A stretch of 64,000 bases of DNA. It comes from Acidobacteriota bacterium (GTDB taxonomy: Bacteria; Acidobacteriota; Holophagae; Holophagales; Holophagaceae). The stretch lies in contig JAJYRN010000003.1 of the NCBI GenBank assembly GCA_021794095.1, positions 124,001 to 188,000 on the forward strand, read 5' to 3'. Below, piece after piece: positions 32,932 through 42,458 of this stretch (positions are counted from its first letter, which is position 1; every line of letters begins with the position of its first letter). Both the position numbers and the translations under genes were made by a program. Below the pieces are notes generated by a model that saw only the letters and a list, made by a program, of their open reading frames with translations, did not search any database and was not told where the DNA came from.

Positions 32932-35016
32932 ATGTCCCTCGCGCCCCTCCCGCTCAGCACCCAAGTGACGGTCCTCCGAGGCCTGGGCCCGGCCCGGGCG
33001 GCGGCGTTGCAAGAGGCGGGCATCAGCACGCTCCGCGACCTGCTCTGGAGCCTGCCGTTCCGGTACGTGGATCGGGGCAGCCTCCAGCCTCTCGGCAGCC
33101 TGGAGATGCGGGGCTTCGAGGCACCCGAAGGCGGCATCGTCACCGTGCTGGGCACCCTCCAGGATCTCCGCCAGAGCACCACCCGGGTGCAGCGCATGGC
33201 CCTCACGGAAGCGCTCCTGGCGGACGGCACCGGCACCCTGCGCCTGATCTGGTTCAACCAACCCTACCTGGGCCGTTCGCTCAAGGTGGGCGACCGGCTG
33301 CTGGCCTTTGGCCCCGTGGTGCTGGGACGGCATGGCCTGGAGATGCGCTCCCCCCAGTTCGAACTCCTGGGCCGCGGCGAGGAGACGCCGTGGGTGCGCC
33401 GGTTCCTGCCCCTCTACCGGAAACTCGGCCCCCTCCCGGGTCGCGCGCGCCAGCGGCTCGCGGCCGAGGCCCTCGCCCGCGCCCATCCGCCCGAGGAGTG
33501 GCTGCCGCTGGAGCTTTCCAAGGATCTGCCGGACACCCTCGCCGCGCTGCGGCTGCTGCATGAGCCGCCCGATGACAGCGATCCCCGGGCCCTGGAGGAG
33601 GGCACGACGCCGGCCCACCAGCGGCTGGCCGCGGAGGAGCTCTTCGCTTTCGCCCTGGGCGTGGCCCTGCGCCGGGCTGGCCGTTTGCGGCGGAAGGGCC
33701 TGGTGGTGCCCACCTCGCCGGAACTTCGCGAGCGGTTGAAGGCCTACCTGCCCTTCCCCCTTACCGGGGCCCAGCGCCGAGCGTTCAAGGAGATCGTGGA
33801 GGATCTCACCTCGGGCCGTGTCATGAACCGCCTGCTCCAGGGCGATGTGGGCAGCGGCAAGACGCTGGTGGCGTTCCTGGCCCTGGCCATGGCCGCGGAG
33901 ACGGGCGGTCAGGGCGCCCTGCTGGTGCCCACCGAAGTGCTGGCCCGGCAGCATGCGGCGAGCTTCCGGCGCCTGCTGGGGCCGGAGATGGGGGCGATGC
34001 AGTTGCTGCTGGGCGGCATGAAGGCCGCCGAGAAGCGCGAAGCCCTCGCCCGCCTCGCTTCCGGCGAGGCCCGTTACGTGGTGGGTACGCACGCCCTCTT
34101 CCAGGAGTCCGTGGCCTTCCACAAGCTCCAGCTCGTGGTGGTGGACGAGCAGCATCGCTTCGGCGTGAAGCAGCGCGAGGCCCTCAAAGAAAAGGGCGGC
34201 GATCCCCATTGGCTGGTCATGAGCGCCACGCCCATCCCGCGCTCCCTGGCCCTCTCCATCTTCGGCGATCTTGATCAGAGCGTGCTGGACGAGCTGCCCC
34301 CCGGCCGCCAGCCCGTCACCACGAAGCTGCTGCCCCCTGCCCAGGCCGAGGTGGCCTGGGGCCTCATGGCCCGGGAGCTGGCCGCGGGCCGGCAGGCCTT
34401 CGTGGTGAGTCCCGCCATTGATCCATCGGACGAAACCAAGGTGCAGCTGCGGGACATCCAGGCCATGGAGAAACTGCTCCGGGCCCGCTTCCCCGGCACA
34501 GAATTGGCGGTGGTCCACGGCCGCCTGAAAGCCGACGAGCTGACCGCGCACATGGACCGCTTCGTGCGCGGTGAGGCGGGGATCCTCCTGGCCACCACGG
34601 TCGTGGAAGTGGGCGTGGATGTGCCCAACGCCACGGTGATGGTGGTGGATCACGCCGAGCGCTTCGGCCTCAGCCAGCTCCACCAGCTGCGGGGCCGTGT
34701 GGGCCGGGGCGCCCACGCCAGCCAGTTCGTCATGCTCAGCGCCAGCGAGGCTCAGCGCCTGGCGGTGCTGGTGGACACCCGCGACGGTTTCCGCATCGCC
34801 CAGAAGGATCTGGAGCTGCGCGGACCCGGCGAGTTCTTCGGCGTGCGGCAGGCCGGCCTGCCCCAGTTCCAGGCGGCGGATCTGGTGCGCGACCGCGCCC
34901 TCCTCCTCCGCTGCCGCGAGGCCGCCGACCGCGCCATCCAGCTCGGCCTCAGCGAGCGTCAGATCGAGTGGCTGCATCGGGAACAGGCGCGCCTGAAGCT
35001 GGCGGATGTGAGCTGA
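32932..35016 (+). CDS. recG: ATP-dependent DNA helicase RecG
   Basis: 694 residues. Remodels stalled forks and branched DNA. Seen: the N-terminal wedge/OB domain (LLWSLPFRYVDRG..., VTVLGTLQDL), Walker A GDVGSGKT, DEQHRFG (the DEQH-type box II of RecG), SATPIPR, VVHGRLK, ATTVVEVGVDVPNAT and QLRGRVGRG. ATG 32932 has an AGG-containing ribosome site. Its stop at 35014-35016 is followed in the same frame by the remains of a subtilase gene. Confidence 0.97.
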   Translation: MSLAPLPLSTQVTVLRGLGPARAAALQEAGISTLRDLLWSLPFRYVDRGSLQPLGSLEMRGFEAPEGGIVTVLGTLQDLRQSTTRVQRMALTEALLADGTGTLRLIWFNQPYLGRSLKVGDRLLAFGPVVLGRHGLEMRSPQFELLGRGEETPWVRRFLPLYRKLGPLPGRARQRLAAEALARAHPPEEWLPLELSKDLPDTLAALRLLHEPPDDSDPRALEEGTTPAHQRLAAEELFAFALGVALRRAGRLRRKGLVVPTSPELRERLKAYLPFPLTGAQRRAFKEIVEDLTSGRVMNRLLQGDVGSGKTLVAFLALAMAAETGGQGALLVPTEVLARQHAASFRRLLGPEMGAMQLLLGGMKAAEKREALARLASGEARYVVGTHALFQESVAFHKLQLVVVDEQHRFGVKQREALKEKGGDPHWLVMSATPIPRSLALSIFGDLDQSVLDELPPGRQPVTTKLLPPAQAEVAWGLMARELAAGRQAFVVSPAIDPSDETKVQLRDIQAMEKLLRARFPGTELAVVHGRLKADELTAHMDRFVRGEAGILLATTVVEVGVDVPNATVMVVDHAERFGLSQLHQLRGRVGRGAHASQFVMLSASEAQRLAVLVDTRDGFRIAQKDLELRGPGEFFGVRQAGLPQFQAADLVRDRALLLRCREAADRAIQLGLSERQIEWLHREQARLKLADVS

Positions 35017-35079
35017 ACCGCGTTTCGTCAGGGCGGGCACAGGACTCGGACAAGCCGTCGGTTAGCCGCTGATCCCCGG

Positions 35080-36156
35080 GTGCAGCAGGCCGCCGAGGAC
35101 ATCGAAGTGCCCTGGATCCCAGACGAGCACGCCACCGCCGTCCGTGAGTCCGATCTCCAGGCCCAGGGACTGAACAGTGAGCCGTACTCGGGCTACCAGT
35201 GGAACCTGCGTCAGATCCATGCCGATCAGACCGCTGCCAATGGCGATATGGGCTGGGGCGTGAAGCGGGCCCGGGTGGCGGTGCTGGATGCCGGAATCTG
35301 GAGCGGCCACCCCGACATAGCCGCCAACGTCAACCTGGCGCTGAGCCGATCGTTCGTGCCCGGTGAGCCTGGCATTGATCCGATCGTGTACGGGTTCAGC
35401 CACGGCACCCATGTGGCCGGCATCATCGCCGCGCCCATCAACGGGATCGGCACCCAGGGCGTGGCGCCCCGCGCGGAGATCGTCGCCGTCAAGGTGCTGC
35501 GCAGCGACACGGGCAGCGGGTCGTTCTCCTGGCTCATCAGCGGGCTCCTGTACGCATCGGGTCCGGAAGTCCGGGCCGATGTCATCAACATGAGCCTGGG
35601 GACCACCTTCGACCGCCTCAATGCCGGCGGCGGCGGGTCCGGTCCGCTTCTTGCGGCGCTCAATCGGGCCATCACCCATGCCACCGCCGCGGGCTCCCTC
35701 TGCGTCAGCGCAGCGGGCAACGAGGGCGTGGACCTGAACAACCGCCTCTGGTCCATCCCGGCCCAGTCGGGCAATGGCATGGACGTATCCGCCACCGGAC
35801 CGTACGGACTGGCCGATTTCGATCGCGCGGCCTCCTACACGAATTACGGCCAGTCCGTCGTCTGTGTGGCCGCCCCCGGCGGTGACTTCGCCTTGGCTGG
35901 CTTTCCCTATGACATGGTGATCAGTCCGGCAGGCCACACCAGCAGGGGTTCCTGGGGGTACTACTTCGCGGCCGGAACCTCCATGGCGGCGCCCCACGTC
36001 TCCGGTGTGGCCGCCCTGATCGTGGGCAAGTACGGCAAGATGTCGCCCGCCGAGCTGAAGCGGCGCCTCCAGCAGAGCGCCGATGACATCCTCAAGCCCG
36101 GCGCCGATCCCTACTCCGGCCACGGCCGCATCAATGCCCTGGAGGCCCTGCGCTGA
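35080..36156 (+). CDS. S8 family (subtilisin-like) peptidase, N-terminally truncated
   Basis: 358 residues from GTG 35080. Catalytic residues are intact: Asp70 (AVLDAGIW), His108 (SHGTHVAG), oxyanion Asn (AAGNEG) and Ser near 299 ([11 protein letters not shown]). The part before the catalytic domain has no signal peptide; instead the frame is open all the way to the recG stop, and the codons before GTG encode a piece like the end of a subtilase propeptide ([16 protein letters not shown]). There is no ribosome site at 35080. So the gene has lost its secretion signal and most of its propeptide, probably in a deletion joining it to recG. It may be a pseudogene, or an intracellular form. Confidence 0.75.
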
Positions 36157-36169
36157 ACGGGCGCTCGGA

Positions 36170-36208
36170 AACGGAACGGGGCCGGCCCCTCATCGGCCCC
36201 GTTCCGTT
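36170..36208. terminator. Terminator hairpin after the subtilase
   Basis: 15-bp perfect arms (36170-36184 and 36194-36208, AACGGAACGGGGCCG and its complement) with a nine-base loop, between the convergent subtilase and VOC-protein genes. Confidence 0.8.
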
Positions 36209-36232
36209 CAGCAGGGGTTGGGGCAAAAGGGC

Positions 36233-36640
36233 TTAGTGGGCAGAGGGGCCCTTGAGTTCCACGACGTTGCCTTCCGGATCCGTGATGTAGATGGAAGGGC
36301 CTGTTCCTTCGGCCCCGTAGCGCAGCTCGGTCGGGCCGGCTTCCACGCCATGCGCCGCCAGGTGTCGTTGGAGATCCGCTTCATCGAAGGGTTCCACCCG
36401 GAAGCAGACGTGATCCAGGTTCCGCGCACCCTTTCCGGGTGCCCCGCCGCCGGCTCTGCCGATCGGCCCATCCACGGAGACGAGGTCGAGGATGGACCGG
36501 CCGGCGCGGAGCTGGACCAGGCCGAGGTCATCCTGTCGTCGCTCCACTGGGCAGCCGAGCACCTCGCCATAGAAACGGAGCATCGTCTCGAGGTCAACGA
36601 CGCGCAGGACAAGGTGATCAATCTCGCGGATGTGGATCAT
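36233..36640 (-). CDS. VOC/glyoxalase family protein
   Basis: 135 residues with two beta-alpha-beta-beta-beta units. Candidate metal ligands: His9 in IDHLVLRV, His near 76 in LDHVCFRV, and Glu in NVVELKG near the C-terminus. VOC proteins include glyoxalase I, fosfomycin-resistance enzymes and extradiol dioxygenases; the fold alone does not pick one. ATG 36640 overlaps the MEMO gene stop (ATGA) and has AGGAA upstream, so it is the third gene of the coaD-MEMO-VOC operon. Confidence 0.88.
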   Translation of the reverse strand: MIHIREIDHLVLRVVDLETMLRFYGEVLGCPVERRQDDLGLVQLRAGRSILDLVSVDGPIGRAGGGAPGKGARNLDHVCFRVEPFDEADLQRHLAAHGVEAGPTELRYGAEGTGPSIYITDPEGNVVELKGPSAH

Positions 36641-37803
36641 GGCGTTCCTGACACCCCGGAGCCCTTCCCGGCGACGAACGCCACGCCGGGATAGCTCACG
36701 AAATGGTAGAGGTTCGCGGGCGCGGTGCGGCCCATGCCGAGGGGCGTCACGGGCAGCTCGGGAAAGCTGATGGAGGTGCCGTAGGCGATGGGAAGGCCCA
36801 CGGGGGCCGGCAGGCTCAGATCGCGGGCGGTTGCACCCAGCAGCAGGAGGCCGAAGGGAATGGAGAAGCGCCCGCACCAGGGCATCCGGTAGGTGTCGGG
36901 ATGCTGGGGATCCACCGCCGCGTCGTAGAAGGCCTCGGCCTTCGCGGGTGCGACGGGCCCGGCCAGGGGGCCCGTCAGCAGGGCCCGGTCCCGGGCGGTG
37001 GCCTTGACGTAGGCATCCACGCCACCCTCGCCGTAGGGCGTGTAGGCGAAGTCAGCGCCGTAGTGGATGCCATCGGAGGAGATCACGATGGCCACATCCC
37101 GGCCCAGCGCCCAGCCGCGTTTCCGCATGGAGGCCGCCAGGGCCGTCCCCAGGTGGGCGGCCAGCTCCTGGAACCGCGGGAAGGAGGCCGCGGGCACGAG
37201 GATGGAGACGATCTTCAATGCAGGATCCTGGTGCTTCAGCCAATAGGCAATGGCCTCGACCGAATGCTCGCTGTCCTGCATCGCCGCATCCTGGATGACA
37301 TCGGAGGCGGGCAGCTGGGCCAGCAGCTCGTCCCGCAGGCCGGACACCGGGATGTCGCCATCGGGGGCGTGCCAGGCCCGGTAGGGATCGAAGACGAGCG
37401 CGTTCCGCGCGCCGAAGCGGCGGTAGCCATGGAAAACCCCCACCAGCACGACGGTGTGGGCCGTCACGAGAGGCACGACCCGACGGTACACGCGCCCCGC
37501 GTACAGGTCGTCATCGTGGGGACAGATCACGCCCAGGACACCGTGGGCAGGCAAGGGGCCGAATGATTCCGGGAGGGGCGGCTGGGCCGACCAGTCCCAG
37601 ACCTTGGCCATCTGGTCCGCCCGCGACGCGAAGCCGACGATGTCCTTCTGGCCCCGTACCGTGGCCGTGGAGGGGATTCCCATGGTCTTCCGCACCTCGG
37701 CCAGGGTCGGCGCGGCTGGGGGCGGAGCAGGCTGGGCCGGGAGGACCGGCGCCAGAAGGGCGGGCAGCAGCAGCCATCGCATCCGCATGGGGGCCCTGGT
37801 CAT
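36637..37803 (-). CDS. Exported MEMO1-family (AmmeMemoRadiSam protein B-like) protein
   Basis: 388 residues. MEMO-like domain with putative metal ligands at the expected places: HD in ICPHDDDLYAG, His in GVFHGYRR, DSEHSVEA, SSDGIHYG, and Cys in WCGRFSIPF. Human MEMO1 binds copper or iron at the matching His, His, Cys. Unlike most members it opens with a signal peptide (MRWLLLPALLAPVLPAQPAP), which places it outside the inner membrane. It starts inside the coaD stop (ATGA) at 37803; an in-frame ATG at 37788 would give a shorter signal. No AMMECR1 or radical-SAM partner is visible. Confidence 0.82.
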   Translation of the reverse strand: MTRAPMRMRWLLLPALLAPVLPAQPAPPPAAPTLAEVRKTMGIPSTATVRGQKDIVGFASRADQMAKVWDWSAQPPLPESFGPLPAHGVLGVICPHDDDLYAGRVYRRVVPLVTAHTVVLVGVFHGYRRFGARNALVFDPYRAWHAPDGDIPVSGLRDELLAQLPASDVIQDAAMQDSEHSVEAIAYWLKHQDPALKIVSILVPAASFPRFQELAAHLGTALAASMRKRGWALGRDVAIVISSDGIHYGADFAYTPYGEGGVDAYVKATARDRALLTGPLAGPVAPAKAEAFYDAAVDPQHPDTYRMPWCGRFSIPFGLLLLGATARDLSLPAPVGLPIAYGTSISFPELPVTPLGMGRTAPANLYHFVSYPGVAFVAGKGSGVSGTP

Positions 37804-42367: not shown

Positions 42368-42458
42368 AACGAGGGGGGACCGCCCGGCCGCTTCGCGTCC
42401 TCTGCGTCCCCCCTCGTGCGCCCCCACGTGATGACAGGGCGAAGCCCGGTCATCACGT
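42368..42458. repeat. AACGAGG-family repeat, copy B
   Basis: Starts AACGAGGGGGGACCGCCCGG. GAGGGGGGAC pairs with GTCCCCCCTC (10 bp). It continues CTCGTGCGCCCCCACGTG and ends with a 15-bp hairpin at 42426-42458 with one mismatch and a GAA loop. The first block, the CTCGTGC..CCCCACGTG block and the last hairpin are all shared with copy A, but the last stem has different, still-paired sequence. It fills most of the 210-base gap before crcB. Confidence 0.75.

Follow-up and report, generated by a model that had tools for sequence, protein, structure and literature searches.

The open reading frame directly behind recG in the window (the whole stretch of 64,000 nucleotides analysed here) is very probably what a recent 5' deletion left of a subtilisin-like protease gene, and this unsecreted remnant is most likely a young pseudogene. 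The recG stop is the TGA at 35014–35016, and the same frame stays open from 35017 to the TGA ending at 36156, a span of 379 codons. The features of the region are as follows.

32932 to 35016, plus strand: recG, intact, encoding an ATP-dependent DNA helicase of 694 aa (Pfam RecG_wedge, DEAD, Helicase_C and RecG_dom3_C)
35017 to 35058, plus strand: junction of uncertain origin that separates the recG stop from the first codon recognisable as protease, with no convincing match to any relative's spacer
35059 to 35133, plus strand: end of the propeptide region, 25 residues in the recG frame, placed by tblastn with relatives' N-termini and by alignments to orthologues and pro-subtilisin E 3whi; the right edge is approximate
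35080 to 36156, plus strand: longest ORF that opens with a start codon (GTG), of 358 aa; it encodes a subtilase catalytic domain with Asp-His-Ser segments and is without promoter, ribosome site, signal peptide and most of the propeptide
35107 to 35109, plus strand: alternative GTG start preceded by a GAGG-like site (35095–35098), probably incidental, the same DNA lying inside the complete G001 gene
36233 to 36656, minus strand: glyoxalase-like gene 3' of the protease remnant (Pfam Glyoxalase, E 1.2e-12), start approximate

The glyoxalase-like gene sits between the protease remnant and a Memo-like gene, and it has no match in the corresponding stretches of the genomes G065 and G027.

A sequence-only reading of this DNA had described the frame past the recG TGA as open into a subtilase with an intact catalytic triad, the codons in between encoding the end of a propeptide, and both parts of this description hold. 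The translation matches Pfam Peptidase_S8 (PF00082) over profile positions 5–288 of 288 with an E-value of 2.4e-47 and 162.1 bits against a gathering cut-off of 21.8, and the segments carrying the catalytic Asp (VAVLDAG), His (SHGTHVAG) and Ser (GTSMAAPH) are all present in an alignment with 10 orthologues and 3whi. Neither a stop nor a frameshift occurs inside the catalytic domain. Solved chains matching the remnant at E 0.001 or better number 173, the best of them being pro-subtilisin E (PDB 3whi), with which residues 20–375 align at E 1.6e-31, partly ahead of the mature domain. Homology to the relatives begins at remnant residue 16, and in tblastn searches with the N-termini of three relatives the match was confined to the retained end, starting at about 35059, with E-values of about 1e-10 to 1e-11; the complete propeptide is absent and only this end has been kept. 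The genome contains one other S8 match, which is partial (32.3 bits, G000:C5:8235-8993, L094) and lies inside a 1120-codon open frame.

The same reading had found no ribosome site at the first start and no secretion signal, and our results agree. The first start, GTG 35080, has an anti-SD energy of -1.1 and no ribosome site, and there is no in-frame ATG before residue 16, the first being at 35248. Across the remnant, the 22 start codons in frame average -2.72 (sd 1.64); the second best of them, GTG 35107 with its GAGG-like site, reaches -5.9, and the true starts of eight relatives, at -6.9 to -9.3, are all stronger. The test is a soft one, since even the assumed starts of the window's recG, ddl and Memo-like gene reach no more than -2.4 to -3.6, and for this reason a weak ribosome site alone does not exclude translation. 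The GAGG-like site itself is probably incidental because the same DNA lies within the complete G001 gene. Neither a -35-like TTGAC nor an AGGAG occurs within 35014–35110, and tblastn found no signal peptide or matching N-terminus in any frame of 34601–35200, the other matches having E-values of 0.066 or worse. The search included a start codon with signal peptide reached through a frameshift near 35017–35080; no N-terminus was found in any frame, and the idea that a frameshift or sequencing error conceals a signal peptide was rejected on this ground. A displaced N-terminus or second copy was not found elsewhere in the genome, where the G001 N-terminus as query hit nothing beyond the 21 retained residues. 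Scans for promoters and terminators in the window (34700 to 36700) and at the G065 locus (L077) returned nothing, and they are uninformative, as the conserved promoter region of G065 with its TTGAC escapes them too.

We searched 47 genomes of the genus, the window's own included, for orthologues, the genus being taken as Geothrix from the named records that match the orthologues, among them Geothrix terrae, G. paludis, G. fuzhouensis and Geothrix sp. SG200. An orthologue is present in 11 of the 47 genomes (again counting the window) at 74–84% identity, and the remaining matches are distant subtilases. The ten other orthologues are all complete, with open frames of 437–491 codons versus 379 in the window, and each has a signal-like N-terminus (judged by eye), a propeptide, an AGGAG ahead of the ATG and a TTGAC box 117–120 bases before it, whereas the window has neither of these two motifs. 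The part of the N-terminus and propeptide that is missing from the window amounts to about 75 residues in the relatives, with a hydrophobic, signal-like N-terminus. All ten complete genes also have a leader hairpin just before the AGGAG, with compensatory changes in five of eight pairs. The leader (TTGAC, T-rich stretch and hairpin; L002:1134-1260 and nine other orthologues) is kept also where the gene lies away from recG. The shared region may function as a promoter and leader under regulation; Rfam at gathering thresholds returned one tRNA and no leader family for four loci (L003, L007, L008 and L084).

The complete gene stands directly behind recG in eight of the ten genomes and elsewhere in G032 and G002. 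In these eight, the interval that is missing from the window contains the promoter-like box, the ribosome site, the signal-like N-terminus and the propeptide of the complete gene, and the comparable codon lies 383–707 bases behind the recG stop, versus 45 in the window. The RecG match reaches the last residue (694) and the TGA stop in all nine recG-protease loci. This comparison of recG 3' regions, which the sequence-only reading had proposed, supports its suggestion that a deletion joined recG to the interior of a protease gene. Counting against a deletion is the 42-base junction, which one clean deletion does not explain against any known relative. The approximately 42 bases have no copy in the 47 genus genomes, only flanking parts being matched in relatives, and comparison with the relatives' spacers and leader hairpin gave short matches at chance level. 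The sequence GCCGTCGGTTAGCCG, from 35054 on, resembles the left arm of the leader hairpin, a likeness that is suggestive only.

A RecG tree of 34 sequences, drawn from 34 of the 47 genus genomes (two of the 47 had no recG match and 11 others were left out), places the window beside G027 (99/96) and this pair beside G065 (100/100). The full protease gene is found in G065, and G027 has none, its recG stop abutting the end of the Memo-like gene; therefore there has been loss at the recG locus in both sister lineages. In G027 (L078, about 2355–2420) the deletion removed the whole protease and apparently the stop codon of the Memo-like gene as well. With a codon model of 11 orthologues, omega is 0.074 on the window branch versus 0.057 elsewhere (LRT 0.88), and an omega of 1 on the window branch is rejected (LRT 53.4). 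Changes seen only in the window affect 3 of the 211 columns that are invariant in the other ten, each of which shows 0–6 such changes. When a neutral last phase was added to the window branch, 2dlnL was -2.73 at 0.02, -5.50 at 0.03, -83 at 0.15 and -128 at 0.2 substitutions per site, which rules out a neutral phase of more than about 0.024 substitutions per site. Pairwise dS between the window and G027 is 0.32–0.52 in recG, the Memo-like gene, coaD and ddl, or approximately 0.16–0.26 per lineage, and any neutral phase would thus be confined to roughly the last tenth of the time since the G027 split. The dating therefore leaves either a truncation after the G027 split, in about its last tenth, or a truncated gene kept under selection. 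The dN/dS test for lost constraint proposed earlier has so far revealed no relaxation, and the low omega on the window branch fits a recent deletion and continued use alike.

The recG gene of G027 contains two in-frame insertions. One is a copy of a dispersed palindromic repeat of about 75 bases (L078, about 320–440), and the second, of about 20 codons, lies in the helicase part (L078, about 1715–1785). The repeat gave 28 rows in G000 and 20 in G027, where recG itself accounts for one G000 row and for part of the G027 self-match; it forms tandem arrays in places, about 97 bases apart, and one copy lies in the window at about 42375–42412.

We propose that in the ancestor recG was followed by a complete gene for an exported protease of the subtilisin type, equipped with a promoter, leader and ribosome site of its own and encoding a signal peptide and a propeptide. 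One or more recent deletions in the window lineage would then have removed at least about 340 bases, from the recG stop into the last third of the propeptide, taking with them the promoter, leader, ribosome site and about 75 codons. What was left over would be a mature catalytic domain stripped of the elements that serve transcription, initiation of translation, export and folding, presumably transcribed at best weakly as the tail of the recG message. Subtilisins of the extracellular type generally need their propeptide for folding. Comparison with the relatives shows that there was a deletion and which elements went with it, that the catalytic segments are intact and that constraint has not yet relaxed; the remnant is probably not made as an active enzyme. 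Measured against its functional orthologues it has lost elements that are needed for expression or function, as a pseudogene does; a readable catalytic domain with omega below 1 is also expected of a retained gene. The feature is ordinary gene decay by deletion together with a coincidence of frame.

The frame shared by the protease and recG is due to chance, a shared frame between two neighbours being expected one time in three. A RecG-protease fusion produced by stop-codon readthrough, as suggested by the sequence-only reading, would make use of this shared and open frame, but it is not conserved: among the nine recG-protease pairs only the window and G006 have a common frame, the pair is out of frame in the seven other relatives, and G006 has a stop between the two genes. 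With 0 of 8 relatives sharing the frame without an intervening stop, with TGA ending recG in nine of nine loci, and with nothing conserved that readthrough could use, such a fusion was rejected and is hardly credible. The suggestion that re-initiation would yield an intracellular protease is not supported, there being no dedicated ribosome site for it. It is unlikely that the remnant is a new intracellular protease, cotranscribed with recG, translated from GTG 35107 or 35080 and kept by selection as a cytoplasmic subtilase. The intact catalytic segments, the branch omega of 0.074, the GAGG-like site ahead of GTG 35107 and the finding of no terminator-like site between 34700 and 36700 are consistent with such a protein, but that site is weaker than all eight true starts tested and lies in DNA that is coding in the complete G001 gene, the general need for a propeptide in folding argues against it, the sister genome G027 lacks the gene, and a recent deletion accounts for the low omega equally well. 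Intracellular subtilisin proteases (ISPs) have a LIPY/F motif in a short N-terminal propeptide, according to the accessible part of PMC6220982, and this motif is absent from the N-terminus of the remnant. There is only a slim chance that the deletion itself made the exported subtilase cytoplasmic, with cotranscription from recG, a start at GTG 35107 and maintenance by selection, as an intracellular protease that has no inhibitory propeptide of the usual kind.

An assembly error or collapse that removed the interval, so that the organism would have the complete gene, is very unlikely. The assembly is a draft of 28 contigs (2,993,436 bases) with the locus inside a 246 kb contig, and the G027 contig is also deleted at the same place, to a different extent; on the other hand, the assembly is 99.25% complete and 0.09% contaminated, the window sequence is identical in the genome, none of the other contigs has the missing N-terminus, and a simple misjoin would not create the approximately 42 junction bases absent from relatives. 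Parsimony would favor decay that began once, before the two sisters diverged, with G027 later losing the remainder. Neutrality since the split, however, predicts about 0.16–0.26 substitutions per site, and both 0.15 and 0.2 are rejected by the values given above, so that so old a truncation survives only with the truncated gene under continued selection and is highly improbable. A recent deletion in the window lineage remains the preferred reading.

The case is mainly a matter of annotation, as an automatic pipeline would label 35080–36156 a cytoplasmic subtilase, whereas comparison shows it to be the 5'-deleted remnant of an exported enzyme. It also provides one dated case of stepwise loss, the gene being full in G065, truncated in the window and gone in G027. 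Should the truncated gene be in use, it would be a test case for the change from an extracellular to an intracellular protease, and if the cytoplasmic reading were true, the birth of an intracellular protease would have been caught in the act. No paper on this gene was found in the accessible parts of the literature on intracellular subtilisins, Geothrix pseudogenes and truncated subtilases.

Compared with exported subtilisin-type proteases (PF00082; 3whi), the remnant has an equally complete catalytic domain, but it is without the signal-like N-terminus and most of the propeptide, both of which are present in 10 of 10 genus orthologues. Like the ISPs of Bacillus, Planococcus and others, as far as these are described in the accessible part of PMC6220982, it is a subtilase without a signal peptide; it differs from them in having neither the LIPY/F motif nor its own ribosome site, and its catalytic domain is 74–84% identical to the exported Geothrix orthologues rather than to ISPs. 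It also resembles 5'-truncated pseudogenes that arise by deletions between neighbours, in which promoter, start and N-terminus are gone and the rest is readable, and here the sister genome has lost the rest; the remnant differs from them in that its frame happens to run on from the stop of the upstream gene.
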